The notes beneath the pieces are model-generated. The model saw only the letters and a list, made by a program, of their open reading frames with translations, searched no databases and had not been told where the DNA came from. A stretch of DNA of 30,671 nt from a virus. Numbering within the stretch: position 1 is the first letter of the stretch; each line of letters starts with the position of its first letter. This document shows positions 3,719 to 30,539 of the stretch, one piece after another. The translations under genes and the position numbers were made by a program. The DNA is taken from IMG/VR virus record IMGVR_UViG_3300006805_000105, positions 1-30,671 of that record. The stretch is one strand, 5' to 3'.

Positions 3719-4102
3719 TTGAAGAAGCGCGTGCCAAAGGAATATTTGGGGGCTTTTAAGGCGGGGCATAGGCATGCGGCGAGGGCGTACATCGACGAGG
3801 AATTTAGCTTTCAGCTTCTTAAGCGAGTAGAGCAAGGATGCGCGAAAGCAAAAGAGGCTCTTGAGTGGCTCGTGAAATTCAATAACGAGCACTACCGCGG
3901 GGTCTATAAGCTTGACGGCACGGACTTTAACGCCACGAAAGAGGAGCGCAAGAAACTAAGGCACGAGCGATATGCCCGGGACGAGGACGTGATGGCCGCG
4001 CAGACGCTTGAGCTTGAAATGGTCGAAATTCAAACGACTGAGGACGAGCTCATCACCCTAATTGACCTAAAAATAGAGAAAGAGCGCTCAACGGGTCAAT
4101 AA
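3719..4102 (+). CDS. Hypothetical charged helical protein, 127 residues
   Basis: I chose TTG 3719 as the start because GGGGGAG (3707-3713) lies 5-7 nt upstream; an in-frame GTG at 3683 would add 12 residues but has no ribosome site. The product is mostly helical and highly charged, with a basic first third (Lys-Lys-Arg-Val-Pro-Lys), a middle Glu/Lys region and an acidic C-terminal helix. No motif is recognised. The stop codon overlaps the first base of the ATTTTGGCACTT element, so this gene closes the lysis segment. Confidence 0.65.
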   Translation: MKKRVPKEYLGAFKAGHRHAARAYIDEEFSFQLLKRVEQGCAKAKEALEWLVKFNNEHYRGVYKLDGTDFNATKEERKKLRHERYARDEDVMAAQTLELEMVEIQTTEDELITLIDLKIEKERSTGQ

Positions 4103-4113
4103 TTTTGGCACTT
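4102..4113 (+). promoter_or_regulatory. Late-module element ATTTTGGCACTT, copy A
   Basis: This 12-bp word is also found at 7078, 10064 and 19644. Here it begins at the stop of the 3719-4102 gene and lies 65 nt before ATG 4178. An AAGG follows after a short variable stretch. The 75-nt gap contains no gene, which favours a promoter or processing site. Confidence 0.55.
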
Positions 4114-4177
4114 GTCTAATAAGGATCACCAAATTAACGGGCCATTCTTAGGAACGCCCTAAAAAAGGATGTAACCA

Positions 4178-4534
4178 ATGAAAAAAAACGCACCTAGAAA
4201 AAAGACTGAAGCCGAAAAAGAAGAAATTCCCAAGGACCTTCAGGATATGCTTGGCTCGCTCACGGCACTTGCCACAATACACACGCTCCTGCAAAGGGGC
4301 ATGTTTCAAGTCACAGAACACGGTGCAGTCGCATCTTCAATTCAATACGTCGAAATCCTCCATAAACAGGTCATGAGCGACGCCAAGGCGCACCCTAAGG
4401 CCCATCTTTCACCGCAGCTTGTTGCCGCAAATAGAACACCTGAGGAGCAGGAAAAGCTCGACAAGGAGTTTTTAGAAATCGTCGAAAAGACACAGGCAAG
4501 CGACAAAACCACTGAAGCACAGGCGGTGCAATAA
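4178..4534 (+). CDS. Hypothetical protein, 118 residues
   Basis: AAAAAAGGATG 4-12 nt upstream supports ATG 4178. The product has a Lys/Glu-rich disordered N-terminus (residues 1-20), a central helical domain (about 22-72) with His and Gln residues, and a Glu/Lys/Thr-rich disordered tail. It is the first gene after late element A and is followed without a gap by the next gene (TAATGG overlap). Position just before the terminase genes suggests a virion or packaging accessory, but nothing in the sequence proves it. Confidence 0.65.
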   Translation: MKKNAPRKKTEAEKEEIPKDLQDMLGSLTALATIHTLLQRGMFQVTEHGAVASSIQYVEILHKQVMSDAKAHPKAHLSPQLVAANRTPEEQEKLDKEFLEIVEKTQASDKTTEAQAVQ

Positions 4535-4887
4535 TGGCCAGACCCAAAAAAATCCAAAATTTAGCCGAAAACATTAAACCCTCTGATAAGGCGCCACAGA
4601 TTATTTTCCCTGACGTTCGCGTTGCCGGAGAAAACCATCCGCTTGAGGATATGTGGATCGACGGCAATTTCCCGGAACTAAAGGCCGTTGGCTGCTGCCC
4701 GATGAAATGCGGAGAAAACGCCGCCGGCAATCCGATCATGCGCTGGATGAGCTACACAATGACCACAAAGGGCCCTAACGTAACCAAGATCGAAATCTCT
4801 GAGCCTGATATTAAGGCAATCGCTGAGGAAACGGCGAAAATCGCGTTCGTCACTCACTTCATTGATCAGGATGCAAACGGGCTATGA
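4534..4887 (+). CDS. Hypothetical protein with a Cys-Cys-x3-Cys motif, 117 residues
   Basis: ATG 4534 overlaps the previous stop. The N-terminus is basic (Ala-Arg-Pro-Lys-Lys). A central segment, residues 53-59, reads Gly-Cys-Cys-Pro-Met-Lys-Cys and could bind a metal. The C-terminal half is a mixed alpha/beta region. The last 4 nt overlap the next start. It sits in the run of small genes before terminase; function unknown. Confidence 0.65.
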   Translation: MARPKKIQNLAENIKPSDKAPQIIFPDVRVAGENHPLEDMWIDGNFPELKAVGCCPMKCGENAAGNPIMRWMSYTMTTKGPNVTKIEISEPDIKAIAEETAKIAFVTHFIDQDANGL

Positions 4888-5237
4888 TTAAACTTTCAGA
4901 GAAAGAAATCAAAGCAATCGTGCTCGTTGGAACTTTGGTCGCTGCGATCATCATCGGCTCGTGGCCCGCAGTCGCCGTGTTTTTTGGCGTCATTGCTCTT
5001 GTGGGTCTTGATGAAATCAACGTGAATCGTGACCTAAAATCGGCGCTCGACGTTCTTGCTAAAAGCCAAATGGAGCTCGACAAGAGATTTAACGAGCAGC
5101 TTGAAGTCGTTTTGGGCATTAAGAAAGAGCACGAATCGATTCAAAAGAACGCCGATGAGCTAAAAAAGCTCGTCACCCAGACCAACATCGCAAACCTGCT
5201 GCCTCAGCATCCCGGAGCAAGGAGAGTCGGTGTCTAA
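4884..5237 (+). CDS. Two-helix membrane protein with a coiled-coil tail (holin candidate)
   Basis: The 117-residue product has two hydrophobic segments, residues 11-26 and 29-42, separated by a short turn (Ser-Trp-Pro). A long charged helix (about 45-100) is probably a coiled coil. This hairpin topology is seen in class II holins, and the only other membrane genes in the late operon are 2531 and 25599. The gene overlaps both neighbours and sits directly before the terminase small subunit, a place where some podoviruses keep membrane proteins. The holin role is inference. Confidence 0.55.
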   Translation: MIKLSEKEIKAIVLVGTLVAAIIIGSWPAVAVFFGVIALVGLDEINVNRDLKSALDVLAKSQMELDKRFNEQLEVVLGIKKEHESIQKNADELKKLVTQTNIANLLPQHPGARRVGV

Positions 5238-5655
5238 GGAAAATCGAAAGAAATGCACGGACGCCGAGGTCGAGGTGCGCGTTACAGAGATTCAAAAGCT
5301 TTTACTCAATGGCTTCACGCGGCCCTACATCGTGGAGATGGCCAATAGAAAGTGGGGCATTGCTCTCCGTACGACGGACGAGTACATCAAGCGCGCCACG
5401 GAAAACATCAAGGCCATAAATCAAACCGCGCGCGAGGACAACCTGGCTCTTGTGACCACGAACCTTTGGGATCTTTTTAGAAGCTGCAAGGAGATGGGTG
5501 AGCTCGGTGAGGCGAGAAAAGCCATCATGGACATTGCAAAACTTCGCGGACTAGACGTTCAACTCGTGGAGCATTTTGTAAATGAACGGCCACTTGAAAG
5601 CGTCTCGGACGAGGAGCTCGATAAGGTCTTAGGCCAATCAGATGGGCGCCATTAA
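5230..5655 (+). CDS. Terminase small subunit (candidate)
   Basis: The start is GTG 5230, with AAGGAG ending 5 nt upstream and an 8-nt overlap with the previous gene. In the 141-residue product, residues 10-60 look like a helix-turn-helix DNA-recognition domain (Leu-Leu-Leu-Asn-Gly-Phe-Thr-Arg-Pro-Tyr-Ile, then Ala-Leu-Arg-Thr-Thr-Asp-Glu-Tyr-Ile). A helical oligomerisation region and an acidic tail follow. It overlaps the large terminase gene by 14 nt. Small terminase subunits recognise viral DNA and regulate the large subunit. The call rests on the helix-turn-helix, size and position. Confidence 0.75.
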   Translation: MSKENRKKCTDAEVEVRVTEIQKLLLNGFTRPYIVEMANRKWGIALRTTDEYIKRATENIKAINQTAREDNLALVTTNLWDLFRSCKEMGELGEARKAIMDIAKLRGLDVQLVEHFVNERPLESVSDEELDKVLGQSDGRH

Positions 5656-7075
5656 GTACGAGGACGCGGTCCGAGAGAAGTGGTATCGAAACGACTTAGA
5701 TTTTAAGCTCCACGCTGCACAGAAGGTTCTACAAGAGACCTTCAATGAGGCTCGCGGGCAGCTTTTTGTCGCTAACTGCTCAAGGCAGTGGGGAAAATCT
5801 TACTGGGCTGTTAAGATCGCAATTGAGACGGCGCTTAAAAACCCCAAGGCGCAAATCCGTTATGGCGCGGCCTTTCAAACGGACCTTGAAGAATTCATCA
5901 TTCCGGCTTTTGAGAAAATCCTAGAAGATTGCCCTCAGGAGCTAAAACCAAAATACAATGCACAGAAGTCGGCGTTTCTTTTTCGAAACGGCTCAAGAAT
6001 TAAACTCGTTGGTCTTGATAAGCGTCCAAACGGTCTGCGTGGTAACACTCTTGACCTGATCATCATCGATGAGTGTGGCTTCGTAGGAAATCTCGATTAC
6101 ATTTATAAATCGATCATTGTTCCTGCGACACTTCACAGGCCTAATTGCAGAATTATTCTCATCTCCACTCCCCCTTCGACGCCAGCGCATCCTTTCGTCG
6201 AGTATGTGCAAAAAGCCGAGATTGAGGGCAGTTATGTTGTGCTTGATATTTACTCAAACCCTCTGATTAGCGAGGGCGACATTGAGCGCATGGCAAAGGA
6301 GTTGGGAGGCAAAGAATCAACCGCCTTTCAGCGCGAATGTCTTTGCAGGTTTGTGGTCGAGGGGGATTTAGCGATCATTCGCGAGTGGGATGATAAGTAC
6401 ATTGAGGAAGTCCAGCGCGATGAGTATTTCGGTTACTACGATCTTTATACATCGATGGACATGGGGCGAATTGATTTCACGGCGCTAATCTTTGGCCACT
6501 ACAATATCAGGCGCGCAGCCCTCGTCATTGAAGATGAACTCACGCTCCATGGCCCAACGTGGACGACGGTCACGCTAAAGGATGCCATTTTACAAAAAGA
6601 GCGGGAGCTGTGGTTTGACGAAAAGGCCAAAGAGGCTAAGAAGGTTTTTCGGCGCATAGCGGATAACAACAACCCGCATCTGATTTTGGATCTTGCAAGC
6701 ATTCACAACCTGTCTTTTATCGAAACCACGAAAGAGTCGCTTGAGGCCATGGTTAACGAAGTGCGTTTCATGGTCGCCGATGGGCGCATCATCGTGCATC
6801 CGCGGTGTAAGCTTTTAATAGGCTGTCTGAAGTACGGAATCTGGGATGAAAAGCGGCGCGAATTTGCAAGATCAAAGGTCTATGGGCATTTTGATCATTT
6901 GGCTGCCCTGATTTATTTGGTGCGGAACCTTGCTAAAGACAAAAAAATCCCGGCCATACACGGCCACGACAATGCGCGCTCTTGGGTGAAGCACGTCAAA
7001 GAAGAAAACATTTCGCCTAACGCGAGGCTTTTGGGAAAAACGCTTTTAACAAAAAAACAGCCATTTAAGGGATAG
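5642..7075 (+). CDS. Terminase large subunit (packaging ATPase and nuclease)
   Basis: The 477-residue motor shows Walker A as Cys46-Ser-Arg-Gln-Trp-Gly-Lys52-Ser53 and Walker B as Leu-Ile-Ile-Ile-Asp143-Glu144. The coupling motif is Ile-Ser175-Thr176-Pro-Pro. The RNase H-like nuclease follows, with Asp273 (Ser-Met-Asp-Met-Gly), Asp350 (Leu-Ile-Leu-Asp-Leu) and Asp418 (His-Phe-Asp-His) as likely metal ligands. It acts at the portal vertex to pump DNA into the prohead and cut the concatemer. Length is normal for the family. The Walker A differs slightly from the usual G-x4-GK[ST] form, as in many terminases. Late element B follows its stop. Confidence 0.93.
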   Translation: MGAIKYEDAVREKWYRNDLDFKLHAAQKVLQETFNEARGQLFVANCSRQWGKSYWAVKIAIETALKNPKAQIRYGAAFQTDLEEFIIPAFEKILEDCPQELKPKYNAQKSAFLFRNGSRIKLVGLDKRPNGLRGNTLDLIIIDECGFVGNLDYIYKSIIVPATLHRPNCRIILISTPPSTPAHPFVEYVQKAEIEGSYVVLDIYSNPLISEGDIERMAKELGGKESTAFQRECLCRFVVEGDLAIIREWDDKYIEEVQRDEYFGYYDLYTSMDMGRIDFTALIFGHYNIRRAALVIEDELTLHGPTWTTVTLKDAILQKERELWFDEKAKEAKKVFRRIADNNNPHLILDLASIHNLSFIETTKESLEAMVNEVRFMVADGRIIVHPRCKLLIGCLKYGIWDEKRREFARSKVYGHFDHLAALIYLVRNLAKDKKIPAIHGHDNARSWVKHVKEENISPNARLLGKTLLTKKQPFKG

Positions 7076-7077
7076 AA

Positions 7078-7089
7078 ATTTTGGCACTT
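7078..7089 (+). promoter_or_regulatory. Late-module element ATTTTGGCACTT, copy B
   Basis: This copy lies in the 33-nt gap between terminase and portal, 19 nt before ATG 7109. A GGGGG run follows, which also serves as the portal ribosome site. Confidence 0.5.
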
Positions 7090-7108
7090 CTCCTCTGTGG
7101 GGGAAGTC

Positions 7109-9088
7109 ATGTCAGAAAACAGCACAAAACCATATTGGGCCTCGGTACCATCGGATGAAATCGCAGACGAAATCTTAGACTGGGTCGATAAGTACTATAA
7201 ATATTTAACGCTCTCTGGGCGCTTGGACCTCTATCGGAGAAGCTGGGGTTACTACTATAAACCCATGCTCTTGGGCTCGCGCCTTAATCCTGCGGGCTCC
7301 ATCGGTGAACTCACGACAATCTCGGTCAATCACTATCGAAACCTTTTGCTCCACCTTGAAACCCTCACAACTCAGCAGCGCGCAGCGTTTGAGCCCGTGG
7401 CCGCGAACAACGACGAGAAGTCTCAGGCGCAGGTCGTTCTGGCGGGCGGTCTTTTGGACTACTACATGCGCGAAAAGAGGCTTGAGCGCCTCATTGTTCA
7501 AGCTGTTAAAGACGGGATGATTTTCGCTGAAGGCTTTGTTCACGCCGAGTGGGATGCGACGGGTGGGAAAGAGTACGGCCTTACTCCCACGGGGGCGCCC
7601 GCATATCAGGGCGACATGAAGTACACAAACTACAACCCATTAAACTGCATCCGCGACTATGAGCTCGAATCTCCCACGGCGGTTTGCTGGTACATCTTAA
7701 GAAGCTTTCAAAACAAATACGAACTTGCGGCGAAATACCCTGACCTCGCAAAAGACATTCTCGACGATTCAACCGATTTCACCGAATACTCTCGCTCGAC
7801 GACGCTCAACTTTCATGGCGATAAAGAAACAAGCAATATCGCCATTTATAAGCTCATCCATCAGCCGACGCCGGCGCTCCCCCAGGGAAGATTTACGATG
7901 TGTCTTGATAACGGCACGGTCCTTCAGGATGGCCCGCTTCCCTATAAGGAAAACCACGTTTATCGCCTGGCTCCGGACGAGCAAACGGGTAGCATTTTTG
8001 GTTACACGGTCGGGTTTGACCTCCTCCCGGTTCAAGAGGCCATTGACCTCGTTTATTCAACCGGGGTTACAAACTTTGCCACTTTTGGTGTCCAAAATAT
8101 TCAAATGCCAAAGGGCGCTGATCTTTCAGTGAGTCAGATTGCGGGCGGATTAAACGCTTTCGAGTATGACTATAAGCTTGGTGAAATTAAACCGCTTCAG
8201 CTTGTTTCAAATCCGCCTGATTTTTATCAGTTCACGCAAATGCTCGAGCATGTGGGGGAAATTCTCTCTGGTGTAAACTCTGTGGCGCGTGGAAACCCCG
8301 AGGCGTCGCTTAAATCGGGCGCCGCCCTGGCACTCGTGCAGTCGATGGCTGTTCAGTTTTCAATGGGTTTGCAGCGCTCCTATGCGCAGCTCGTTGAGGA
8401 CGTGGGTACCGGCACCATTAACATTTTAAAATCCTTTGCCACGGTTCCACGGGTCGCCGAAATCGTAGGGAAAGCCAACCGTCCACTCATGAAACAGTTC
8501 ACGGGCCAAGATCTAGACGGCATTAACCGCGTGTCAGTGAACATGGGTAACCCACTCACGGCCACACTCGCAGGACGCACGAATTTAGCGGAAAACCTTG
8601 CCGATCGTAACATGATTGAAAATCCGGATCAATATATCCAGGTCATGACGACCGGGCGTTTAGAGCCAGTGATCCAAGGAAAGCAGCAAGAGCTCATTTT
8701 GATTAAGGGCGAAAACGAAAAGCTTTCGGACGGAATCCCTCAGCGCGCACTTATCACCGATCAACACTCCCAGCACATTCTCGAGCACAAAATCGTGCTC
8801 GCAAATCCAGAAATTAGATCAAACCCAAATAGCCCTGTGCTCGCTGCAACATTGGCTCATATTCAGGAGCATATCAATTTCCTAAAGACAGCGGACCCGT
8901 CGCTTTTAGCGCTGATTCACCAGCAATCGATGGCGCCGCAAATGCCGCCGCCCCCGGGTGACGGGCAAGCGGCCATTCCGCCGGCCGGACCTCAACCGCC
9001 CGACGTGCAGGAGCCAAACATGCCGTCGCCGCCCGAGGGAACAGACCCACAATCAGCCGCAGTAATTGAAAACCAACAGCAAACGTAA
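7109..9088 (+). CDS. Portal (head-tail connector) protein
   Basis: The 659-residue protein is placed between terminase and scaffold, as expected for a portal. The N-terminal part (residues 15-110) is a helical region with many Tyr and Trp. The middle has a long helical core (Gly-Leu-Gln-Arg-Ser-Tyr-Ala-Gln-Leu-Val-Glu) and the C-terminal 60 residues are disordered and rich in Pro and Gln. Portals form the 12-mer ring through which DNA enters and leaves. ATG 7109 is preferred to the in-frame GTG at 7097 because GGGGGAAG lies just upstream. Length fits podovirus portals. Confidence 0.85.
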   Translation: MSENSTKPYWASVPSDEIADEILDWVDKYYKYLTLSGRLDLYRRSWGYYYKPMLLGSRLNPAGSIGELTTISVNHYRNLLLHLETLTTQQRAAFEPVAANNDEKSQAQVVLAGGLLDYYMREKRLERLIVQAVKDGMIFAEGFVHAEWDATGGKEYGLTPTGAPAYQGDMKYTNYNPLNCIRDYELESPTAVCWYILRSFQNKYELAAKYPDLAKDILDDSTDFTEYSRSTTLNFHGDKETSNIAIYKLIHQPTPALPQGRFTMCLDNGTVLQDGPLPYKENHVYRLAPDEQTGSIFGYTVGFDLLPVQEAIDLVYSTGVTNFATFGVQNIQMPKGADLSVSQIAGGLNAFEYDYKLGEIKPLQLVSNPPDFYQFTQMLEHVGEILSGVNSVARGNPEASLKSGAALALVQSMAVQFSMGLQRSYAQLVEDVGTGTINILKSFATVPRVAEIVGKANRPLMKQFTGQDLDGINRVSVNMGNPLTATLAGRTNLAENLADRNMIENPDQYIQVMTTGRLEPVIQGKQQELILIKGENEKLSDGIPQRALITDQHSQHILEHKIVLANPEIRSNPNSPVLAATLAHIQEHINFLKTADPSLLALIHQQSMAPQMPPPPGDGQAAIPPAGPQPPDVQEPNMPSPPEGTDPQSAAVIENQQQT

Positions 9089-9129
9089 ACAAACCATGAG
9101 GCCCATCAATTGACGGCCAAGGAGACACT

Positions 9130-10038
9130 ATGGAAGCACCTGGATCAGGAGCGCCTACGCAAGCGGCGCAAAGCCAACCAAACCAACCGGCGGACCCGAA
9201 AGCGCCACAAGGGCAAGCACCAGCGGGAGGCCCGGCCACGGCCGGAACGGTTAAAGAAGCCGCCCAAGCCGTAATGGAGAAATTCAAAATCAAGGTCGAC
9301 GGGCGAGAAGAAGAAGTCGACCTTGAGGAACTTAAGCGCGGCTATGGCCACCAAAAGGCCGCAAACAAAATCCTGCAAGAGGGGAAACAGGCGAGAAAAC
9401 AAGCCGAAATGTTCATCTCCATGCTCAAGGACCCGGACAAGGTCGAGGAGATTTTGGAAAAACTCGGCCACAAGCCGCGCGAGTTATTTGAGACAAGGCT
9501 TGCAAGCAAAATTAAGCGCGAAATTCTCGAGAAAGAGGACCCTCGAGCGATTGAGCTTGAGGATGCACGCGCAAAACTTAAGGCCTATGAGGACCTAGAG
9601 CGAAAGCAGAAAGAGGCTCAAGAGAAGCGCGCACTTGATGAAATGAAGGCTAAGTACGCCAAAGACTACAACGACCAATTTGTTGGCGCCTTAAAGGAAA
9701 CTGGGCTCCCGGCGACAAAAGAGTCGGTGAGCAAAATGGCTCAGTACATTTCGCGCGCAGCAAAGATAGGGTATGAGATTACCCCGCAAGAGGCCGCAAA
9801 AATGGTTCAAGAGGACATTCAGCAATACAAGATTGCCCTGCTTTCACAGGCGGACGGCGAAACGCTGCTCAATATGTTGGGTGACGAAATGGCCGAGAAA
9901 ATTCTCACTGCTCGAGGCTCGAGAGTGAAATCGCCAACGCTCCCCACGCCCCAAGAGCAGGGACAGCGGCGCGAGCGCAGAACCAACACGAATATTTCAG
10001 ACAAAGAACGCCGGCGCATGACTCGCGGATGGGGATAA
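9130..10038 (+). CDS. Capsid scaffolding protein
   Basis: The 302-residue product begins with a disordered Pro/Gln/Ala region (1-45). A small domain (residues 50-75: Lys-Ile-Lys-Val-Asp-Gly-Arg-Glu-Glu-Glu-Val-Asp) follows, which is common at the start of phage scaffolds, then long charged helices (75-235) and a very basic C-terminus (Arg/Lys-rich, about 255-302). Scaffold proteins organise capsid assembly and bind the coat by a basic C-terminal helix. The order portal-scaffold-coat supports the call. AAGGAG is 7 nt before ATG 9130. Confidence 0.85.
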   Translation: MEAPGSGAPTQAAQSQPNQPADPKAPQGQAPAGGPATAGTVKEAAQAVMEKFKIKVDGREEEVDLEELKRGYGHQKAANKILQEGKQARKQAEMFISMLKDPDKVEEILEKLGHKPRELFETRLASKIKREILEKEDPRAIELEDARAKLKAYEDLERKQKEAQEKRALDEMKAKYAKDYNDQFVGALKETGLPATKESVSKMAQYISRAAKIGYEITPQEAAKMVQEDIQQYKIALLSQADGETLLNMLGDEMAEKILTARGSRVKSPTLPTPQEQGQRRERRTNTNISDKERRRMTRGWG

Positions 10039-10063
10039 AAATAATTTTCAAAAGTCCTTAAAG

Positions 10064-10075
10064 ATTTTGGCACTT
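10064..10075 (+). promoter_or_regulatory. Late-module element ATTTTGGCACTT, copy C
   Basis: This copy lies in the 70-nt gap after the scaffold gene and before the 39-codon gene and the major capsid gene. GATTTTGGCACTTAG (15 bp) is identical to copy D. A TAGGGGG run follows 8 nt later. A dedicated promoter here would suit the high demand for capsid protein. Confidence 0.55.
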
Positions 10076-10108
10076 AGTGTTTGTAGGGGGATCTTTAGGG
10101 ACGCTTTC

Positions 10109-10228
10109 ATGCTATCCCGCGATCACCTTAAAGACTTTTGGGATTTGAGCCGCATTTGCCAAGCTCTCATCAATAAGAAGTCGCCACAGAAGAAACCAAT
10201 TTCAAAAACTTACTTTGAGTCGCTCTAA
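10109..10228 (+). CDS. Small basic protein between scaffold and capsid, 39 residues
   Basis: A clean frame from ATG 10109 to TAA 10226-10228 is preceded by AGGG at spacing 8. The product is basic, with Lys-Lys pairs at residues 23-24 and 28-29, an aromatic N-terminal half (Phe-Trp) and no membrane segment. It fills most of the space between scaffold and coat, downstream of late element C. It may be a minor head protein or only part of a leader; function unknown. Confidence 0.45.
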   Translation: MLSRDHLKDFWDLSRICQALINKKSPQKKPISKTYFESL

Positions 10229-10278
10229 GCCTCAAACAGGCCCGACTGCACTCAAAAAATCTTTAAGGAGATTTCTTT

Positions 10279-11577
10279 ATGTCACAAACGGGTGATTTAA
10301 ACTCAACCTATAAAATCGCATATCCCTCTGGCATCGTCGACGCACTTCCCAAGTATGGGAAAATCCGCGACCTCGTTGATTTCGTGCCGTCACAGTTGAT
10401 GAACGGTAAGCATTACGAACAGCCCGTAACGCTGACCCGCGAACAGGGCTTCACTTATTCTTTAGACACACAAACAGCCTACGCGCTCAACGACTCTATC
10501 GGTATGGAAATGCAGTCCGCTGTTGTTCCCGGCGCCGACATCGTTTTGAACTCGACTGTTGGTTACAACCAGGCCGCTCGCGCCTCTCACTCCGCCACAA
10601 GCTTTAAGAACGTCATGAGCTTGAAGTTTGAAAACATGATGGAATCTTCAGAGATGCGTCTTGAAATCGCCTATTTATATGGTCAAGACCATATCGCTCA
10701 GGCCGCAGCTCAACAGGTCGTAATTGCAAGCTCCATGCTCCCTATCGTCATCGACACAGACGAATGGGCGACTGGTATTTGGACTGGCTCCGAAAATGCC
10801 AACGTCGTTTTCGTTAAAGCCTCTGATAACACCGCCGTTGACTCTCTGCGCTCTTTCAAGGTTGCTAAAGTCGACGTTGACGCTCGCACAGTTTACTTCG
10901 CGGCCGGTACCGCTGGCACAGCTGGTACGCTGACCACGCTTGAGACTGCAATCGAAGCCTACGCTTGTAACATCCATTTCTATGGCTCTTGCTCCGGTTC
11001 CGACAGCTCTTTCGCTTATGCGGAAATGGCGGGCTTGAAGAAAATCCTCACCAACACGGGCTCCTTGTTCGGCATCGACGCCGGAACTTATGACTTGTGG
11101 AGAGGCAACTCTGTTACGGTTTCTGGTCAGCTTACAATGCAAAAAGTGTTGTCTGCTGTGGCAAAACCCGTTCAGCGCGGTCTTAACGAGAAAGTTTCTT
11201 GCCTCGTGAACCCAAGCACATGGGCTGATTTGGCTTCAAACTTGGCCGCATTGAGACGTTTTGACGGCTCCTATTCTAAGAAGAAAGCCGAAAACGGTTC
11301 TGAAGAACTTGAGTATTTCTCTCAGAACGGTTCAATCAAGATCATCTCTTACAACATCGTTAAGGAAGGCGATTGTTTCATCTTCCCAGAAGATAGAACT
11401 ATCCGCATCGGTGCTCGTGAGTTGGGCCTAAATGATCCGACTCGTCCTGAAGAAGAAATTTTCTTCACGATTCCTGGATACGCTGGCGTGGGCTTGAGAG
11501 CCTATACGAACCAAGCGATTTTCCTCGAGACACCGGCTCGCGGTGTGTACATCACCGGCATTACTAACTCGAACTAA
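10279..11577 (+). CDS. Major capsid protein
   Basis: The 432-residue protein lies directly after the scaffold gene and before a strong terminator, as major capsid genes often do. AAGGAG is 8-9 nt before ATG 10279. The N-terminal region (residues 20-110), a helical stretch at 112-140 (Phe-Glu-Asn-Met-Met-Glu-Ser-Ser-Glu) and an Ala/Gly-rich insertion (about 195-240) followed by beta regions are compatible with the HK97-type coat fold. The fold cannot be proven by eye. Its pyrimidine-rich codon choice differs a little from its neighbours, which would fit a highly expressed gene. Confidence 0.85.
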   Translation: MSQTGDLNSTYKIAYPSGIVDALPKYGKIRDLVDFVPSQLMNGKHYEQPVTLTREQGFTYSLDTQTAYALNDSIGMEMQSAVVPGADIVLNSTVGYNQAARASHSATSFKNVMSLKFENMMESSEMRLEIAYLYGQDHIAQAAAQQVVIASSMLPIVIDTDEWATGIWTGSENANVVFVKASDNTAVDSLRSFKVAKVDVDARTVYFAAGTAGTAGTLTTLETAIEAYACNIHFYGSCSGSDSSFAYAEMAGLKKILTNTGSLFGIDAGTYDLWRGNSVTVSGQLTMQKVLSAVAKPVQRGLNEKVSCLVNPSTWADLASNLAALRRFDGSYSKKKAENGSEELEYFSQNGSIKIISYNIVKEGDCFIFPEDRTIRIGARELGLNDPTRPEEEIFFTIPGYAGVGLRAYTNQAIFLETPARGVYITGITNSN

Positions 11578-11588
11578 TCAAACCTTTA

Positions 11589-11614
11589 AGGGCTCCTCCC
11601 CAGGGGCCCTTTTT
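11589..11614 (+). terminator. Rho-independent terminator after the capsid gene
   Basis: AGGGCTCCT (11589-11597), loop CCCC, AGGGGCCCT (11602-11610) form a 9-bp stem with one G-U pair, followed directly by TTTT. It should end or reduce transcription from the capsid gene into the fibre genes. Confidence 0.85.
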
Positions 11615-11633
11615 ACTTTAGAAAGGGTTAAAA

Positions 11634-12164: not shown

Positions 12165-12187
12165 TTAATTTTTAGTCAGGGGAATTA

Positions 12188-14086
12188 ATGAGCGTTGATT
12201 TAACGATAAACGGGGTCACTTATCCGTTTCCCGAAACCGGCGACACTGATTGGGGTCCAGACGTTACAGACTGGGCCACGGCGGTCACAGGCGGCATGCT
12301 GCAAAAAGCGGGCGGCACGTTTCAGCTTTTAGCCGAAGTTGATTTCGGCACGGCCTACGGGATTAAGTCCCTCTATTACAAATCGCGCACGGCAAATCCC
12401 GCCTCGAGCGGGCAAATCCGCCTAGCTCAAGCCGACGTTATTAATTGGCGCAATAATGCCAATGGCGCGAATCTCTCTCTTGGGGTTTCAAGCGACACGC
12501 TTCAGTTTAACGGAAGCAACATTGCAACAGCAAGCGACCTCGCGAGCTACGTTCCCAAAAGCCTTTATTCAGCAAAAGGCGCCATTTTGGCGGCGTCTGG
12601 AACGTCAACACCCGCGACTCTTTCAGTGGGTACAAACGGGTTTGTTCTTACTGCTGACTCAGGAGAGGCCACCGGCATCAAATGGGCTGCTGCTGGGGCG
12701 GGCGACGTACTAGGCCCTGCAAGCTCTGTGAATAACGGCTTCGCTAGATTTGATGGCACCACTGGGAAGCTGTTGAAAGATGGCGGGACAACGCTTGTTA
12801 ACGCTGACATAGCAACAAACGCGGCAATCGCATTTTCAAAAATGGCCGCGCTCACCGCAAGCCGCGCTCTCGTGTCTGACGGCTCGGGTGTTGTTTCAGC
12901 CGCGACCACAACAGCCACAGAAATTGGCTATTTAAATGGCGTCACAAGTTCAATTCAAACACAGCTCGACGCAAAACAGCCGACAATCTCGGTCAGCGAC
13001 ACAAACTCAATCGACTCCACGCTCTCTTCAAACACAATTAGCTCGTCGCTTAAAATCTCGACAGGGGCCGCGTCTAACGGGTCTTACAATGCTCTTTTGA
13101 CAATTGAGTCAGATGGGCTGATGGCCCAAGTGCCTGCTTATGCAAACGCGCTTACAAATCTAAGCTTAGCGGTGACCTTTGGTGCTGGTGCGATGACAAT
13201 CGCTGTTAAAACGCTGGCTGGCAACAATCCAACATCTGCAAGCCCGGTCATTGTTCCAGTAAGAAGTAACACTGCCTCTTCAGGGGCCTTTGATTTGGTC
13301 GCCGTCACAAGCGCACTGAGTATTACGGTGCCGTCAGGGGCGACGCTTGGGTTGAATTCCGGCGGGGGGTTTGGCTCTGTTTATCTTTCTTTCATAAATA
13401 ACGCAGGCACAGGCGAGCTTTCTGTAAACTCTCAATGGCTGCAAGATGGAATTATTTCAACAAGCGCTATCGGTACTGGGTCTGATACCGCCGGGGATTA
13501 TTCGACAACATCACGCTCTAATGTTGGAAGCCGGATGATTGCGCGACTTGATTTCAATTCTGCGCCAAACGGAACATGGGCGTCGGTTGACAAGGTCTCG
13601 ATTGGAAACTGCGGAGACCTTCACTCGGCAACCAGCGTGGTTACGCTGCTTACGGCTACGTCTGGAACGAAAACGCCAGGAGCATCAAACAACTATCTTG
13701 CTATGAGCGGGAACTCCTTAATTTTGCAGCCGGGGTTTTGGAAGCTAAACGGTCAAATTGGGTTTGCAAGCTCAGGCGGCTCTGCGGGCTATGCCAGCTT
13801 TCAAGCTCTTTGGTCAGCGGCAAACGGCGGCGACAATGGAACGTTGCCTGCGTCCCTAACGACGACGACAGGCCTTACCGTGCTCTCACCATACGATAGT
13901 TCCGGTGGCTTTAACTCACCGTCCGCTTACTTAACGGCAACACTCAATGCGGGCACGCTGCAAATGCCAGAGGTAACTGTTTACGCCGATCGCACAGCGA
14001 CGGTCTATTTGGTTCCGAGGGCTGCAATGTCAACCCCTGCAAATGCAAGAGTGACTTGCGCGGCTTGGGCTCAACTTATTTCTTAA
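12188..14086 (+). CDS. Tail fibre protein
   Basis: The 632-residue product has a short N-terminal module (residues 1-70, with Gly-Val-Thr-Tyr-Pro-Phe-Pro-Glu and Asp-Trp-Gly-Pro-Asp-Val) that probably attaches to the virion. Ser/Thr/Ala/Gly-rich shaft repeats follow, such as Ser-Lys-Met-Ala-Ala-Leu-Thr-Ala-Ser-Arg-Ala-Leu-Val-Ser-Asp and Ile-Gln-Thr-Gln-Leu-Asp-Ala-Lys, which are typical of phage fibres. The C-terminal third (about 430-632) looks like a beta-sandwich receptor-binding domain. It would recognise the host surface. No enzyme motif is visible. The ribosome site is AGGGGAA before ATG 12188. Confidence 0.8.
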   Translation: MSVDLTINGVTYPFPETGDTDWGPDVTDWATAVTGGMLQKAGGTFQLLAEVDFGTAYGIKSLYYKSRTANPASSGQIRLAQADVINWRNNANGANLSLGVSSDTLQFNGSNIATASDLASYVPKSLYSAKGAILAASGTSTPATLSVGTNGFVLTADSGEATGIKWAAAGAGDVLGPASSVNNGFARFDGTTGKLLKDGGTTLVNADIATNAAIAFSKMAALTASRALVSDGSGVVSAATTTATEIGYLNGVTSSIQTQLDAKQPTISVSDTNSIDSTLSSNTISSSLKISTGAASNGSYNALLTIESDGLMAQVPAYANALTNLSLAVTFGAGAMTIAVKTLAGNNPTSASPVIVPVRSNTASSGAFDLVAVTSALSITVPSGATLGLNSGGGFGSVYLSFINNAGTGELSVNSQWLQDGIISTSAIGTGSDTAGDYSTTSRSNVGSRMIARLDFNSAPNGTWASVDKVSIGNCGDLHSATSVVTLLTATSGTKTPGASNNYLAMSGNSLILQPGFWKLNGQIGFASSGGSAGYASFQALWSAANGGDNGTLPASLTTTTGLTVLSPYDSSGGFNSPSAYLTATLNAGTLQMPEVTVYADRTATVYLVPRAAMSTPANARVTCAAWAQLIS

Positions 14087-14095
14087 AGGAGATTT

Positions 14096-14485
14096 ATGAT
14101 TAGCTACTCACAGAAAATTTTAATTGACGGCGAAATGACCGGAACTGACGAAAACACTTCAGATCCCCTTTGGGTTGGCACAGCGACGGTTTTTGGTATC
14201 CAAGCTTTGCGCGATGGCGATGCCGCTGGGTCAGTGAAGCTGCAAGCCTCTTGTTCACCAGCAAGACCAAATACTCTGGCGGGGAACCTGCCGTCAGTCG
14301 CCATTCCAGATGAAGAATGGGAAGACATTCCAGACTCTACTTTTTCAGTCGCAGCCACGGTCGGGTGGATTTGGAGTTACGATGGCGCAGGCTTTAACTG
14401 GGTAAGAGCAGTTTACACAAATGCAAGCGGCACCGGCACCATTAACGTCAGAGCGAACGTAAAATCAAACGAGGTCCTAGGGTAA
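14096..14485 (+). CDS. Small fibre-associated beta protein, 129 residues
   Basis: AAGGAG 7 nt upstream supports ATG 14096. The product is rich in Thr, Ala, Gly and aromatic residues in alternating patterns (Val-Gly-Trp-Ile-Trp-Ser-Tyr, Gly-Thr-Ile-Asn-Val-Arg), consistent with one beta-sandwich domain and no membrane segment. It lies between a fibre and a spike gene and overlaps the spike start by one base. A fibre accessory or base protein is likely from position only. Confidence 0.65.
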   Translation: MISYSQKILIDGEMTGTDENTSDPLWVGTATVFGIQALRDGDAAGSVKLQASCSPARPNTLAGNLPSVAIPDEEWEDIPDSTFSVAATVGWIWSYDGAGFNWVRAVYTNASGTGTINVRANVKSNEVLG

Positions 14486-15846
14486 TGGGATTTGTTCAGC
14501 TGCCATTAGGAGATAGCGGGCCCACGCATCGTTACCTGATTGACGAAATCGGTGACGTTGGCGGCGCGTATTCTTTTCAGCAGCTTGGAACATATGATGG
14601 CCCATTAGTAAAAATCAGAAGAGCCTCAGACAATGAAGAGCAAGACTTTGCCCCAACTGAAGGCGGAGTACTTGATACCGCAGCAATCGAAGAATTTTTA
14701 GACGGCACGACGGGTTTTGTAACTACTCTTTATGATCAAACAGAGGGTGGACACGACCTGATTCAGGCAACATCAGGAAATCAACCGCAAGTATTAAAAG
14801 ATTCAAACGGCTACTGGTATGCCAACTGTACTCAAAAATTCATAGCTTCGGCAAGCTTCATTGGCGCGCAAACAAACTCAACAGTTCACGTTATCTGGCA
14901 GTGTCTTTCAAATGGAGCCTTGCCCGTAACGAACGCTCAGGGCGGCATTAACCTTGGGGCCGGAAACAACATTCTCGTGCCATGGTGGACAACAGAGCAG
15001 TCGCCGACATTTAAAGACGCTTCCCAATCAAGCTTTAACTGGGCTGACAATAAGCCTCGAGAACACATTTTTAAATTCTTAAACGGGTCCGTGGCGAGCT
15101 TTGAGTACGCTTCAAACGGGAGAACCCCTTATACGGTGGCAAACCCAAGCTATTCAGAACTTTCGGTCGGAGCTTCTTTAGTTGAGGGAAATTTGCGCGT
15201 CTATGAGCTAGTAGTTTTCACAAAAGATGCTGATCAGGAAACTATTTTTGAGATCACAAAAAACAACTATCCCCTGATGTTCATGACGGAAACGCTTTGG
15301 CTCAACCTTGGCGACTCAAACACGGCGGCTGGTTTTGCGAACATTGGAACTCAGTGGACGGCAAGACAGGTAATTCAACAGCCCATTGAGGTGCCATACT
15401 ACTCTCGCGCTCACGGTGGTTTTACAATTCAAGATTTTCTCGACCACCCAGAAGACGTCACGTTTTATTTAGAAAATTTCACTTACGATAACGCGACTGT
15501 GATTATTTTTCTAGGAACAAATGACATAGCAATTGACGGCATCACGGGCTCCGAGTGCTACGATAAGCTGTGTGAGTTAGCTGGAATTATAAGAGCAGCT
15601 GGAGCCATGACCATTGCAGCAATTACCATGCTCCCGCGAACAGCTGCGGCTCCGTTTTCGGCTGAGCGGGATATTTTTAACGACCTTTTGATTGCAAATG
15701 CAGAGGGTGTTTTTGACATCGTCATCAACACGACTCTGGACCCCGCGCTAGAAGATCAAAACGACCCAACTTATTTTGCAGACACCACGCATTTGAACGA
15801 TGCCGGTCAACAACAACTTGCGGACCTTGTGGTGGCTGCTTTTTAA
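14485..15846 (+). CDS. Tail spike with lectin-like domain and SGNH esterase domain
   Basis: The 453-residue product combines two domains. Residues 20-265 resemble the concanavalin-like domain of arabinofuranosidase-B-type proteins (Gly-Ala-Tyr-Ser-Phe, Ile-Arg-Arg-Ala-Ser-Asp-Asn, Thr-Leu-Tyr-Asp-Gln). Residues 270-453 carry the four SGNH/GDSL hydrolase blocks: Gly-Asp277-Ser278-Asn279 with the nucleophile Ser, a Gly-Gly at 311-312, Gly-Thr-Asn346-Asp, and Asp433-x2-His436-Leu-Asn for the Asp/His pair. It would bind host surface glycan and remove O-acetyl or similar esters. The esterase is complete and placed beside the fibre genes, which supports a virion depolymerase or receptor-modifying role. 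Confidence 0.85.
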   Translation: MGFVQLPLGDSGPTHRYLIDEIGDVGGAYSFQQLGTYDGPLVKIRRASDNEEQDFAPTEGGVLDTAAIEEFLDGTTGFVTTLYDQTEGGHDLIQATSGNQPQVLKDSNGYWYANCTQKFIASASFIGAQTNSTVHVIWQCLSNGALPVTNAQGGINLGAGNNILVPWWTTEQSPTFKDASQSSFNWADNKPREHIFKFLNGSVASFEYASNGRTPYTVANPSYSELSVGASLVEGNLRVYELVVFTKDADQETIFEITKNNYPLMFMTETLWLNLGDSNTAAGFANIGTQWTARQVIQQPIEVPYYSRAHGGFTIQDFLDHPEDVTFYLENFTYDNATVIIFLGTNDIAIDGITGSECYDKLCELAGIIRAAGAMTIAAITMLPRTAAAPFSAERDIFNDLLIANAEGVFDIVINTTLDPALEDQNDPTYFADTTHLNDAGQQQLADLVVAAF

Positions 15847-15856
15847 AGGAGTAAAC

Positions 15857-16117
15857 GTGAACGACGAAATGAAATTAAAGGTTATCCAAGAAATCATGGA
15901 CGATCTTCAAAGCCAGATGGAGATGGGCAGGGACGACTTCGATGAGCGTCTCGGCCGCAAAAAGCCTGATATTGAAATTCGAGAAGAAGTTATCGGGAAA
16001 GACCTCGACGGCGACATGGAGATGGGCGAGGACCCAGAACACATGGAGACGGTCTTGGGCGACGACGAATCCCCCGAGGATAAACTCAAATCACGCATCA
16101 TGAAAATGAGAGGCTAA
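15857..16117 (+). CDS. Small acidic protein, 86 residues
   Basis: AAAGGAG at 15845-15851 precedes GTG 15857, making this a better start than an in-frame codon at 15800 that would overlap the spike gene. The product is strongly acidic and Met-rich (Met-Glu-Met-Gly-Glu-Asp and similar), with a basic patch at residues 31-37 and a basic last 11 residues. It precedes the tail adaptor gene. It may be a virion assembly factor; no motif identifies it. Confidence 0.65.
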   Translation: MNDEMKLKVIQEIMDDLQSQMEMGRDDFDERLGRKKPDIEIREEVIGKDLDGDMEMGEDPEHMETVLGDDESPEDKLKSRIMKMRG

Positions 16118-16118
16118 A

Positions 16119-17057
16119 TTGGCCCTACCTCAATATGCGACAGAACAGTTACTTGAAAACATCAAGCGCCGATGCTTGGTGCCGACAAGTCAGCTCACCT
16201 ACACGCCTCAAGGGCTCACTGATTTGGCAAACGATACGCTTCAGGGCGAAATCGTGCCGCTCATTATGTCGACTCGTGAGGACTATTTTGTCACGCATGT
16301 TGATGTTCTAAGCCCCGCCGACGGCGTTATTGATTTTCCGGCTGAAGCCGTGGGGTCGAAACTTAGAAACGTCTGCTATTACCCGTCGGGCAATCCGCTC
16401 AACATCATCAATTTGCCAAGGATTGACCTGGATCTTGTGGCTGGGGTCGGTTTCATGAATTACGCCACTTTGGCGGGGTTTTATATTGAGGGGAATAAAT
16501 TCTGCCTCTACCCAAACACCTCGGTTCCGACAAACACAACGATTCGCATCTATTACTACAAACGCGTGCTGACACTTGCCGCGCCCGGCCACTACGCCTA
16601 CGTGCGAAGCGTCGACACAAACACGAATGAGATTATTGTCGATTCGGTGCCCTCTGACTGGGAGGTGGGCTCAGAACTCAATACGGTTTCGGGTGAGCCG
16701 AACTTCGATATCACAAATTCACGGGTCACAATTCAGGCCCTATCTTCTCCGACGATCACGCTCGATAGCGTCGAGGACATAGAGGTCGGAAATTACATTT
16801 CGTTTTACGGCTATTCGGCGATTCCCATGATTCCGCTTGAGGCGCATCAATATCTTGCGCAAGTCACCGCCGGTAAGGTGCTTGAGGGCCTGGGAGACCG
16901 CGAGGGGATGACGGCGGCCCTTCAGAAAGCGCAATCGCTTAAAGATTCACTGCTTGTCATGATTTCTAACCGCATCGATGGGAGCCCTAAAAAGGTCATT
17001 AATCCTCAAGGGGGATTAAGAATGCCTTACTGGCGACGTGGTTGGTGGGGGTTTTAA
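16119..17057 (+). CDS. Head-tail adaptor / tail tubular protein A-like
   Basis: The start is TTG 16119, just after the previous stop, with GAGAGG 5 nt upstream. The first 55 residues (Ile-Lys-Arg-Arg-Cys-Leu-Val-Pro-Thr-Ser-Gln, then Asp-Leu-Ala-Asn-Asp-Thr and Pro-Leu-Ile-Met-Ser-Thr-Arg-Glu) match the pattern I know for podovirus adaptor proteins that bind the portal. The middle is beta-rich with Tyr clusters and the last 50 residues form a helix and a Trp/Arg-rich tail. At 312 residues it is larger than T7 gp11 (about 196). The nozzle gene follows directly. Confidence 0.7.
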   Translation: MALPQYATEQLLENIKRRCLVPTSQLTYTPQGLTDLANDTLQGEIVPLIMSTREDYFVTHVDVLSPADGVIDFPAEAVGSKLRNVCYYPSGNPLNIINLPRIDLDLVAGVGFMNYATLAGFYIEGNKFCLYPNTSVPTNTTIRIYYYKRVLTLAAPGHYAYVRSVDTNTNEIIVDSVPSDWEVGSELNTVSGEPNFDITNSRVTIQALSSPTITLDSVEDIEVGNYISFYGYSAIPMIPLEAHQYLAQVTAGKVLEGLGDREGMTAALQKAQSLKDSLLVMISNRIDGSPKKVINPQGGLRMPYWRRGWWGF

Positions 17058-19736
17058 TTGGCCGCTCAACAAAAGCTCGACCTTCAGTTAAAAGGCCTCT
17101 ATACGACGCCAAACAACCTCTCTGCGGTTCCGCAAGGGGCGCTCGAGGTCGCTGACAACGTCGTTATCAACACGCAGTCGAAAGTCGACTCGCGCCGCGG
17201 ACAAACCCAATACGGCGACCCCCTAGATATTGGCTCGGGCCAAGTTAACAAACTGTTCAATTACGCGCAGTCCATCATTGCAAACTATGACGACAAAATG
17301 GCCTACGACTCTGGGAGCGGCGTTTGGGTCGAATACCCGGGCACCTATACGGCGCCATCAAACGACTTCCGCATGCGCTCCCTTGAGGCGGCAAAAAACT
17401 TTTACTTCACGACCGATGCCGGGATTTACAAGCTTGACGCGATAAACGCAGACCCGCGGCCCGCGGGCGTCGTTCGCGCTCTAGGCGGCACCGCCACAAC
17501 AACGGGCACGACGGGATTTCTTGAGCCAGATTCGGCGGTCGCCTATCGCATGATCTGGGGCTATCGGGATGCAAACAATAACCTCATTCGTGGGGCGCCA
17601 TCTCAGCGTCTTGTTGTCGCAAACTCAGGCTCGGACCCCGTCGACGTCAATCTCACGTTTCAGATCCCAGACACAATCACGACTGAGTACTTTTATCAAA
17701 TTTATAGGTCTTTCGGCACGGCCGATGCCGACGATGAGCCCTCAGACGAGCTTCAGCTTGTCATCCAGGGAAACCCGACCTCGGGGGAAATTTCGGCAAA
17801 GGAATTCACAACTCTCGACATTACTCCCTATTCCCTCATGCGGGAAACGCTCTACACGTCGCCCTCGCAGCAGGGGATAGAGAATGCCAACTATGAGCCA
17901 CCCTTTGCCATTGACATGGACGTGTTTAAAAACTGCGCATTTTACGCCAATATCACGCAAAAGCAGTCCTTGTCTCTTGCGCTCATTTCGGTGGAGTTCC
18001 CTTCTTTTGGCTATTACACCTCGGCGACGGTTGACACGACAAACGGCTCTGCTGTTTTGACCGGCGTTACGGACACAAGCGACTTGCGCGTGGGGATGCG
18101 CGCCGTGGGCACCGGGATTCCGGCGGGGCTCACAGTACTTTCAATCGATTCCTCAACACAAGTCACCCTTTCCGGTAACGCTTCAGCGACGGGCACCGTG
18201 AGTGTGGAGTTTCAAGACAGGCTCACGGTTGGGGGCGTAAATTATTGGGGCGGTAGCGCACAAGATGTGGCCACAAACACCTTTTTTGTCGATGCCTCTG
18301 GCACCCCGGGGCAAAACATCGCAGCGACCGCTTTAAGCTTGGTCGAAGTTATCAATAAGAGCTCATCAAACACGCTCGTTTATGCCTACTATCTCTCGGG
18401 CGTTGAGGATTTGCCGGGGCAAATTCTATTTCAGGAGCGGGCTATCGGGGGCGCCACTTTTTACGCCACAAGCACGGCTGGGGATTCGTTTTCTCCCGTG
18501 CTTCCTGCGTCTGGAACCACAATCGCCTCTGATAACGATGCGAGACAAAACCGGGTCGCCATTTCAAAACCCGGCGAGGTTGAGGCTGTGCCCAGCTACA
18601 CATATTTTGACGTGGGCTCGGCGAATTTTCCCATTCAGCGAGTCGTGGCGCTTAGGGACGGGATTTTCTTTTTTAAGCAAGACGGGATTTTTAGGCTTTC
18701 CGGGGAAACTTTCTCAAGTTTCGTCCTCGACCTTTTGGATAACACCGTGACGCTTCAGGTGCCAGAAAGCGCCGTGGCCTTTAATAACCAAGTGTTTTGT
18801 TTCACCACGCAAGGGGTTTGCGCCGTCACGGATGCCGGCGTCCAGATCATGAGTGTTCCCATTGAGGCAACACTCCTTGAGCTTTCAAGCGATCAGTATA
18901 CGAATTTCGTTTCGGCAAGCTTTGGCGTGGCCTACGAATCGTCGCGCCAATACCTGTTTTTCACCGTAACTGAAACCGATGACGAGTTTGCGACCCAAGC
19001 GTTTATTTATAACTCGCTGACTTCGACCTGGACCCGATGGGTGATGAATCGGACCTGCGGCGTGGTCAACACGTCAGTTAACAAGCTGTTTATGGCCGAG
19101 CCTGATTCTGGCCAAGTGCTCATTGAGAGAAAATCATTCACCAACGCCGACTACGCCGACGAGCAGTACAACGTGACGATTAGCTCAATCGATACCGCAA
19201 ACAGCCAGGTCACGGTTCTAGACGCATCAAGCGTCGCCACAGGAATGACATTGTCACAAAATGCCCGCAATTACCTGGTTACTGAGGTGGCCGGTAACGT
19301 GCTCACGCTAACGGGAACCTCGGGGCTCACGGCCGCCGCGGCGATTGTGTACACGCCGATTGAAAACTCAGTGCAATGGGCGCCGATTGATCTAGAAAAC
19401 CCAGGGCTTTTAAAGCAATTTTCGGAGATTGGACTGTTTTTTAGAAACGCTGCCTTTAGGGAAATTGAGGCCACGTTTTCCTCAAATATTACGGCCGGGG
19501 ATGAAACCGTAATGATCGCAAATATCAGTCTTGGGGGTTTTGGCGAATTCCCCTTCGGGCAACAGCCCTGGGGTGGGGTTTTAGGGGGCCAGGCCGTTTT
19601 AAGAACCTATGTTCCGCCGGAACAGCAGCGCTGCAATTGGCTGATTTTGGCACTTAGAACTCAAGAGGCTTTCACGGGGTTTTCCCTTCAAGGCCTTTCT
19701 GTTTGGTTTAACCCAATGAGCCCGAGGATTAAATAG
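17058..19736 (+). CDS. Tail nozzle / tail tubular protein B-like
   Basis: The 892-residue product starts at TTG 17058 directly after the adaptor stop, with GGGGG a few bases upstream. The N-terminus (Leu-Asp-Leu-Gln-Leu-Lys-Gly-Leu-Tyr-Thr-Thr-Pro-Asn-Asn, then Val-Asp-Ser-Arg-Arg-Gly-Gln) fits podovirus tail tube proteins that form the nozzle below the adaptor. Most of the protein is beta-rich, as expected for a propeller-like hub, with Thr/Val repeats at about 325-390 and 700-750 that look like inserted beta domains. Size is close to T7 gp12 (about 794). Late element D lies near its 3' end. Confidence 0.78.
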   Translation: MAAQQKLDLQLKGLYTTPNNLSAVPQGALEVADNVVINTQSKVDSRRGQTQYGDPLDIGSGQVNKLFNYAQSIIANYDDKMAYDSGSGVWVEYPGTYTAPSNDFRMRSLEAAKNFYFTTDAGIYKLDAINADPRPAGVVRALGGTATTTGTTGFLEPDSAVAYRMIWGYRDANNNLIRGAPSQRLVVANSGSDPVDVNLTFQIPDTITTEYFYQIYRSFGTADADDEPSDELQLVIQGNPTSGEISAKEFTTLDITPYSLMRETLYTSPSQQGIENANYEPPFAIDMDVFKNCAFYANITQKQSLSLALISVEFPSFGYYTSATVDTTNGSAVLTGVTDTSDLRVGMRAVGTGIPAGLTVLSIDSSTQVTLSGNASATGTVSVEFQDRLTVGGVNYWGGSAQDVATNTFFVDASGTPGQNIAATALSLVEVINKSSSNTLVYAYYLSGVEDLPGQILFQERAIGGATFYATSTAGDSFSPVLPASGTTIASDNDARQNRVAISKPGEVEAVPSYTYFDVGSANFPIQRVVALRDGIFFFKQDGIFRLSGETFSSFVLDLLDNTVTLQVPESAVAFNNQVFCFTTQGVCAVTDAGVQIMSVPIEATLLELSSDQYTNFVSASFGVAYESSRQYLFFTVTETDDEFATQAFIYNSLTSTWTRWVMNRTCGVVNTSVNKLFMAEPDSGQVLIERKSFTNADYADEQYNVTISSIDTANSQVTVLDASSVATGMTLSQNARNYLVTEVAGNVLTLTGTSGLTAAAAIVYTPIENSVQWAPIDLENPGLLKQFSEIGLFFRNAAFREIEATFSSNITAGDETVMIANISLGGFGEFPFGQQPWGGVLGGQAVLRTYVPPEQQRCNWLILALRTQEAFTGFSLQGLSVWFNPMSPRIK
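19644..19655 (+). promoter_or_regulatory. Late-module element ATTTTGGCACTT, copy D (inside the nozzle gene)
   Basis: This copy is inside coding sequence, 82 nt before the GTG of the next gene, and shares 15 bp with copy C. It codes for Ile-Leu-Ala-Leu, so chance or codon constraint is possible, but its place before the ejection-protein block fits a module promoter. Confidence 0.35.
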
Positions 19737-30373: not shown

Positions 30374-30539
30374 CTTCTGGGTTTTTTTATGGGACTCTTT
30401 TGATCTATTCTACATGGTAACCGGACTGCGTGCTCAATCTCCAATCGAAATCTTTTTCCCCGAATTTGGGCATTGGCTTTTTGGAAAAATGATTGGACGC
30501 AAAGGAGTAAAAATATGCCCCCCCGCCTGCAAAAAATAA
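30363..30539 (+). CDS. Small aromatic-rich protein, 58 residues
   Basis: GGAGGTG (30350-30356) lies 6 nt before ATG 30363, an excellent ribosome site. The frame overlaps the previous gene by 11 nt and the next by 25 nt. The product is rich in Phe, Trp and Tyr in the first half and ends in a basic tail with two Cys. It could be membrane-associated. Function unknown. Confidence 0.5.
   Translation: MRYNFWVFLWDSFDLFYMVTGLRAQSPIEIFFPEFGHWLFGKMIGRKGVKICPPACKK

Follow-up and report, generated by a model that had tools for sequence, protein, structure and literature searches.

Repeated phage-specific words as putative late promoters in a group of uncultured phages, and a small helical protein as their candidate reader

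The genome of an uncultured virus (IMG/VR record IMGVR_UViG_3300006805_000105) carries the 12-bp word ATTTTGGCACTT at the borders of its late gene modules, raising the question of what these repeats do and which protein reads them. The window analyzed here is the entire virus record, 30,671 bases, and holds four exact copies of the word (A to D, Table 1), all on the + (late) strand and none on the - strand, in agreement with the positions given in a preliminary description of this DNA. The core 10-mer TTTGGCACTT was found four times, against a mean of 0.08 per strand and a maximum of 1 in 100 shuffles. When up to two mismatches were allowed, there were seven matches versus 4.7 expected, which is no excess; the enrichment is thus confined to the exact word. 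We consider it likely that these words are single-element late promoters read by a phage factor that redirects the host RNA polymerase, most likely the protein encoded by open reading frame (ORF) 3719, through its residues 85 and 88.

Scans of IMG/VR for terminase, capsid, ORF3719, and portal revealed relatives of the virus; they are syntenic, with capsids 73-82% identical and full contigs mostly of 31-35 kb. A genome-contig search gave no close prophage relative, and a nucleotide search of the window against a phage collection gave no match. While ATTTTGGCACTT itself is missing from the IMG/VR relatives, in 11 of them a repeated word peculiar to the phage is found in the gaps ahead of the packaging genes, the portal gene, and the capsid gene, with a nearly constant frame (TT-x-x-Y-ACTT) and a phage-specific center (GGC, GCC, AAT, AAC, or ACC). 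On the late strand, G005 and G006 carry TTGCCACTT three times (word also given as TTTTGCCACTT), G001 carries TTTAATACTT four times (also given as TTTTAATACTT), G008 carries TTAATACTTT seven times, G009 carries TTACCACTATT four times, and G007 carries TAACACTTTA four times, plus one opposite-strand copy. Moreover, TTAATACTTT is the word of L017 and L055 too, TTAATACTT is common to L019, L088, and L128, and L013 has TCGCCACTT; the copies number four in L055, three each in L019 and L128, and two each in L088 and L013. Shuffle means for the relatives' words were 0.01-0.19 in those tested. Among generic matches near gene starts, most have the phage's own center and none lies on the other strand. 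A center that is uniform within a phage and different between phages is the mark of a trans-acting reader. Furthermore, the three sites of L203 (1507, 4838, and 8319) read TTACCATTGC, ATACCATTGC, and TTACCATTGC, with the center ACC at each, and at all three the usually constant ACTT is changed to ATTG (ATTGC), suggesting that a second part of the recognition also shifts in concert.

Within the window, the copies differ in strength. ORF 3719-4102 and copy A overlap by one base, the third of the stop codon, and an equivalent site is present at the end of the ORF3719 homologue in every word-bearing relative (degenerate in L013); the corresponding RNA would start at about 4121-4122. At copy B, the ribosome-binding site begins 9 nt and an ATG 19 nt past ACTT, and the predicted RNA start, about 7097, means that the portal gene probably starts at ATG 7109 and not at GTG 7097. 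For copy C, an RNA start at about 10083 would be expected. Copies C and D have 15 bp in common (GATTTTGGCACTTAG), as previously described. However, the relatives encode the same peptide as copy D with the word missing, and their fourth site stands directly ahead of the ORF 20146 homologue (G001, G007, G008, and G009), copy D lying about 490 bp upstream of that place. Since copy D falls in codons conserved as protein and not as word, it represents a relocated site or a coincidence. Consistent with the comparison among relatives, copies A to C very probably belong to a phage-specific class of late promoters, while copy D, the weakest of the four, is a probable but uncertain promoter. The suggestion in the preliminary description that the copies are promoters for a phage-altered host polymerase is, in this regard, strongly supported by the relatives and has gained a candidate specificity protein, with copy D as its weakest member; on the other hand, the sequence at 2337-2350 that it had taken to be related, GGCAATTGTGTAAA, does not have the ...YACTT frame.

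Thirty-eight sites were aligned on ACTT, with its last T as position 0. T occupies -8 and -7, A or G -6, A, C, or G -5, and C or T -4; ACT at -3 to -1 is invariant, +1 to +6 are mostly A/T-rich, and purines come next, with no conservation upstream of the word across the alignment. At 19 sites with long leaders, where no ribosome-binding site confounds the count, a purine is found at +9 in 95% and A/T at +5/+6 in 84-89%. At short-leader sites, the ribosome-binding site begins 4-16 nt and the start codon 15-28 nt past ACTT; consequently, a promoter's RNA start would lie within about ten bases of the word, too close for the word to act as a -24 or -35 box. This arrangement fits a -10-type, single-element late promoter, and as in promoters of the phiEco32/T4 type, one short conserved element is repeated ahead of late genes, with no -35 element, and the purine switch at +8/+9 is consistent with an RNA start 6-8 bp downstream.

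In the mechanism that we propose, the word would be the sole recognition element of the late promoters, at roughly -18 to -8, and the nearly invariant Y-A-C-T-T would replace the -10 box, its A being at about -11. The six A/T-rich bases past ACTT would melt, and RNA would begin at the purine 8-9 bases past ACTT. Word positions -8 to -5 (numbered as in the alignment) would be read by a phage-encoded specificity factor, whereby the host RNA polymerase would be redirected. This factor would most likely be the 127-aa ORF3719 protein, residues 85 and 88 touching bases -6 and -5, and it would act in partnership with the host polymerase instead of being a sigma factor itself.

In this context, the ORF3719 family is present in every word-bearing genome covering the region (G000, G001, G005-G009, and G018) and was not detected in wordless G002, G003, G004, G010, and G012; in terminase, portal, and capsid trees, whose support is not decisive, G002/G010/L058, which form a wordless clade, tend to branch from within the word-bearing group. 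For the protein, sequence searches of Pfam, PHROGs, NCBIfam, and PDB yielded nothing usable. Its AlphaFold model is helical (predicted local distance difference test score, pLDDT, 80; helix 74-89), with no structural relatives in PDB by Foldseek or VIA-align (zero matches with E <= 0.001) and nothing significant in BFVD, and its conserved tail is acidic/hydrophobic (ED.LI..ID). We regard this protein as the best candidate for the reader of the word, by putative DNA binding. Separately, L128 encodes a second, diverged ORF3719 paralogue (3187-3642) with NARNRD and the ED.LI..ID tail.

The specific link between protein and word comes from covariation. Across nine genomes, a Y at residue 85 goes with G at base -6 and an N with A, without exception, and no other ORF3719 column matches this base exactly; at residue 88, the residue class gives base -5 (D with G, K/R with C, N/S with A). 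Among seven control proteins, 0 of 1022 columns reached 0.8 normalized information in the exact comparison, and 0 of 769 columns matched base -5 in the class comparison. L203 was found after the rule had been written; from its residues N and R, A at base -6 and C at base -5 were expected, and this is what its words show (TTACCATTGC). Indeed, the code holds in all ten genomes, L203 included, through two columns three residues apart, the shuffled-label P for two such columns within four residues being 0.00005 with relatedness ignored. L232 (single word copy) and L204/L205 (no ORF) were outside this test. The pairings Asn-A, Arg/Lys-G opposite C, and Asp-C opposite G are familiar in double-stranded DNA recognition. 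Moreover, sigma-70 reads its -12 base through residues spaced i, i+3 in a helix, which the spacing of residues 85 and 88 resembles, as an analogy that makes no claim of membership.

Several points weigh against this reading. Nearly the same spacing would be expected from a promoter and from an RNA-processing site; in the class comparison, one column of the control proteins also matched base -6; and the covariation P, which takes no account of relatedness, reflects about 3-4 independent changes per position. The change of ACTT to ATTG in L203 weakens a strict -10 interpretation. ORF3719 also showed no sigma homology: there was no match to Pfam Sigma70_r2 (PF04542) and no fold match, and a likeness by eye of its N-terminus to region 2 of extracytoplasmic function (ECF) sigma factors received a probability of 0.5% in profile-profile comparison; at the sequence level, the protein does not appear to belong to the sigma-70 family, and homology to RNA polymerase was not found either. 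Furthermore, in L135 and L163, which encode distant members of the family, no word is obvious; the original role of the family may therefore be a different one. A bolder idea, which we hold tentatively and lean somewhat against, is that ORF3719 founds a new promoter-specificity class, being neither a sigma factor, a polymerase, nor a classical activator, and reading the upstream half of a -10-type element via residues 85 and 88 with a swappable code. If true, this code would have let the phage group re-address its entire late transcription program several times.

The alternative that survives best, although we judge it unlikely, keeps the words as late promoters and gives their reading to another trans-acting gene (e.g., an undetected sigma-like protein), ORF3719 being a hitch-hiker such as a packaging protein. 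In fact, ORF3719 sits where a packaging-associated gene could, distant homologues precede packaging genes in wordless phages, and the gene is physically linked to site A; however, this linkage does not account for why ORF3719 also matches sites B and C, which lie 3 and 6 kb away, no other gene cluster fits the presence and absence of the word as well, and the paired covariation columns share one predicted ORF3719 helix. Improbable to a greater degree is that the word works as an RNA element, namely a late-mRNA cleavage or protein-binding site just upstream of a ribosome-binding site or leader hairpin. In its favor, messenger RNA of T4 is cleaved at specific sites, upstream late promoters would transcribe all sites, and the capsid leader helix begins 0-6 nt past ACTT; against this stand the promoter-like A/T-rich stretch followed by the purine switch, the fit of the residue/base pairings (Asn-A, Arg/Lys-G, and Asp-C) to double-stranded DNA preferences, and the gap before ORF 9130, which has a leader hairpin but no word.

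Host sigma-54 or ordinary sigma-70 promoters that require no phage factor are very improbable. In this one phage, TTGGCAC equals a sigma-54 -24 box, and the earlier observation of a perfect box with no -12 GC was accurate. The GG is present but the -12 GC is absent in 4/4 copies, and the GG itself is lost in relatives, whose varying centers give TTGCCAC, TTAATAC, TTAACAC, or TTACCAC as counterparts; judged from sequence, the likeness is a coincidence. For sigma-70, a -35 hexamer 16-18 bp before a -10 hexamer was not found, the 38 sites having no conserved upstream positions, and the start codon lies too near for either a -24 or a -35 box. Sigma-70 promoters were also sought in the same gap of wordless relatives, where only G002 shows a resemblance (TTGACC-17-TATAGT, P = 0.06), the others being no better than shuffles. 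The least credible reading, chance or coding constraint, can draw on the limitation of the excess to exact copies and on copy D, which encodes the conserved peptide ILAL and alone may be chance, but is already refuted for copies A to C by 11 relatives, in which the sites are conserved and the words phage-specific.

Table 1. Positions of the words, the candidate reader, and other features in the window.
Feature	Position	Strand	Remarks
Amidase endolysin	2969-3682		
ORF3719, 127-aa orphan helical protein, candidate promoter-specificity factor	3719..4102	+	TTG start; Shine-Dalgarno GGGGGAG
Codons Y85-A-R-D88, proposed base-reading positions (i, i+3)	3971..3982	+	Predicted helix 74-89
Word copy A, putative late promoter ahead of packaging genes	4102..4113	+	Exact word; position kept in word-bearing relatives
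Leader hairpin GGGCCATTCTTAGGAACGCCC, YA/C internal loop, downstream of site A	4139..4159	+	Separate element; by eye; kept in relatives
Terminase large subunit (TerL)	5642-7075		
Word copy B, putative late promoter, fills TerL/portal gap	7078..7089	+	Exact word; conserved position
Portal	7097-9088		Weak match
Hairpin of the same kind, GGCCCATCAATTGACGGCC, ahead of ORF 9130	9100..9118	+	No word
Word copy C, putative late promoter, pre-capsid gap	10064..10075	+	Exact word; conserved position
Structured capsid leader, outer helix from 0-6 nt past ACTT	10076..10278	+	Minimum-energy folds, five genomes; relatives
Capsid leader inner hairpin GGGACGC..GCTATCCC	10098-10118	+	
Word copy D, uncertain promoter within end of ORF 17058-19736	19644..19655	+	Exact word

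Leader hairpins accompany several late genes. The YA/C-loop hairpin has two circularly permuted forms (GCYAUCC..GGACGC and GGACGC..GCYAUCC), precedes the first packaging gene, ORF 9130, and the capsid genes, and is also seen in relatives (e.g., L088 639-665, L055 162 and 6032, and G007 27876-27899), and the long outer helix of the capsid leader differs in sequence between phages. No Rfam match was obtained in the window, hairpins included; this recurring hairpin is possibly a new regulatory leader RNA.

Elsewhere in the window, RecT and YqaJ are located at the right end, ORF 20146, downstream of copy D, had no family match, and ORF 21636 has a Peptidase_S74 tail-chaperone domain, results that lend no support to the ejection proteins which the preliminary description placed after copy D. 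By eye, a near-perfect inverted repeat of ~20 bp (GCTAATCTCAGCGGAGTAATT...AATTACTCCGCTGAGATTAGC; 1969-2061) at the boundary of the early and late regions is terminator-like. Both ends of the record (571-620 and 30516-30560) begin similar genes, ATG.CCCCCCG.CTGCAAAAAATAATG, which suggests a tandem gene family or a nearly closed genome. Among the relatives, an insert at about 7099-8054 of G009 (IMGVR_UViG_3300020192_000052) divides the capsid gene into a 55-aa start and 382 aa and encodes an apparent GIY-YIG endonuclease, being presumably an intron, and the minus strand of G007 (IMGVR_UViG_3300020057_000106) has five to six repeated sequences ahead of minus-strand ORFs (e.g., TTTTAAGAG, AGAGCGGCT, and TTGAAGAAT), perhaps early promoters or operators.

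The nearest named phage is that of Silvanigrella aquatica MWH-Nonnen-W8red 1 (CP017838), a distant relative by terminase and tail protein, with GTAACACTT and two identical copies of GTAACACTTATAGTTAAAAA, one directly behind its homologue of tail ORF 17058. Its terminase is 27% identical, its ORF3719 homologue is weak (E = 0.0017), and the record is unannotated and contains runs of N. This host, together with the two GTAACACTTATAGTTAAAAA copies, suggests Bdellovibrionota-type hosts for the phage group. Few systems have been worked out in detail in which a phage redirects the host RNA polymerase to its late genes, and the natural variation described here offers ready-made matched protein/promoter pairs, with which the identity of a late-promoter reader, and the way all of its sites change in concert, can be put to direct test. 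Should the two-residue code prove correct, uncultured phages, probably of Bdellovibrionota, would supply orthogonal late promoters as well as a new family of proteins that appropriate RNA polymerase.

In T7-family promoters, variable specificity bases stand beside a constant ACT core and relatives differ in the specificity bases, a layout that the word resembles in its variable center beside a constant ACT core; RNA_pol (PF00940), the single-subunit polymerase, had no match in the 31-34 kb genomes, and control genomes gave none either. T4 late promoters (TATAAATA), served by gp55, gp33, and gp45, resemble the system proposed here in having a single element in the -10 region and a small phage specificity protein, and ORF3719 shares the feature of a conserved acidic/hydrophobic tail; the phages differ in promoter sequence and in genome size (30-34 kb here), and neither relatedness to gp55 nor coupling to a replication clamp has been demonstrated. 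The closest parallel in layout is phiEco32, whose middle/late promoters consist of the single element tAATGTAtA, recognized by the phage sigma factor gp36, with RNA starting 6-8 bp downstream (PMC8948821). As in phiEco32, one conserved element of ~9 bp, phage-specific and with no -35 box, stands before late genes, and the RNA start predicted here, 8-9 bases downstream, is similar. In contrast to gp36, ORF3719 has no detectable sigma homology, and unlike in phiEco32, the word varies within one closely related group, tracking two residues of the candidate factor.
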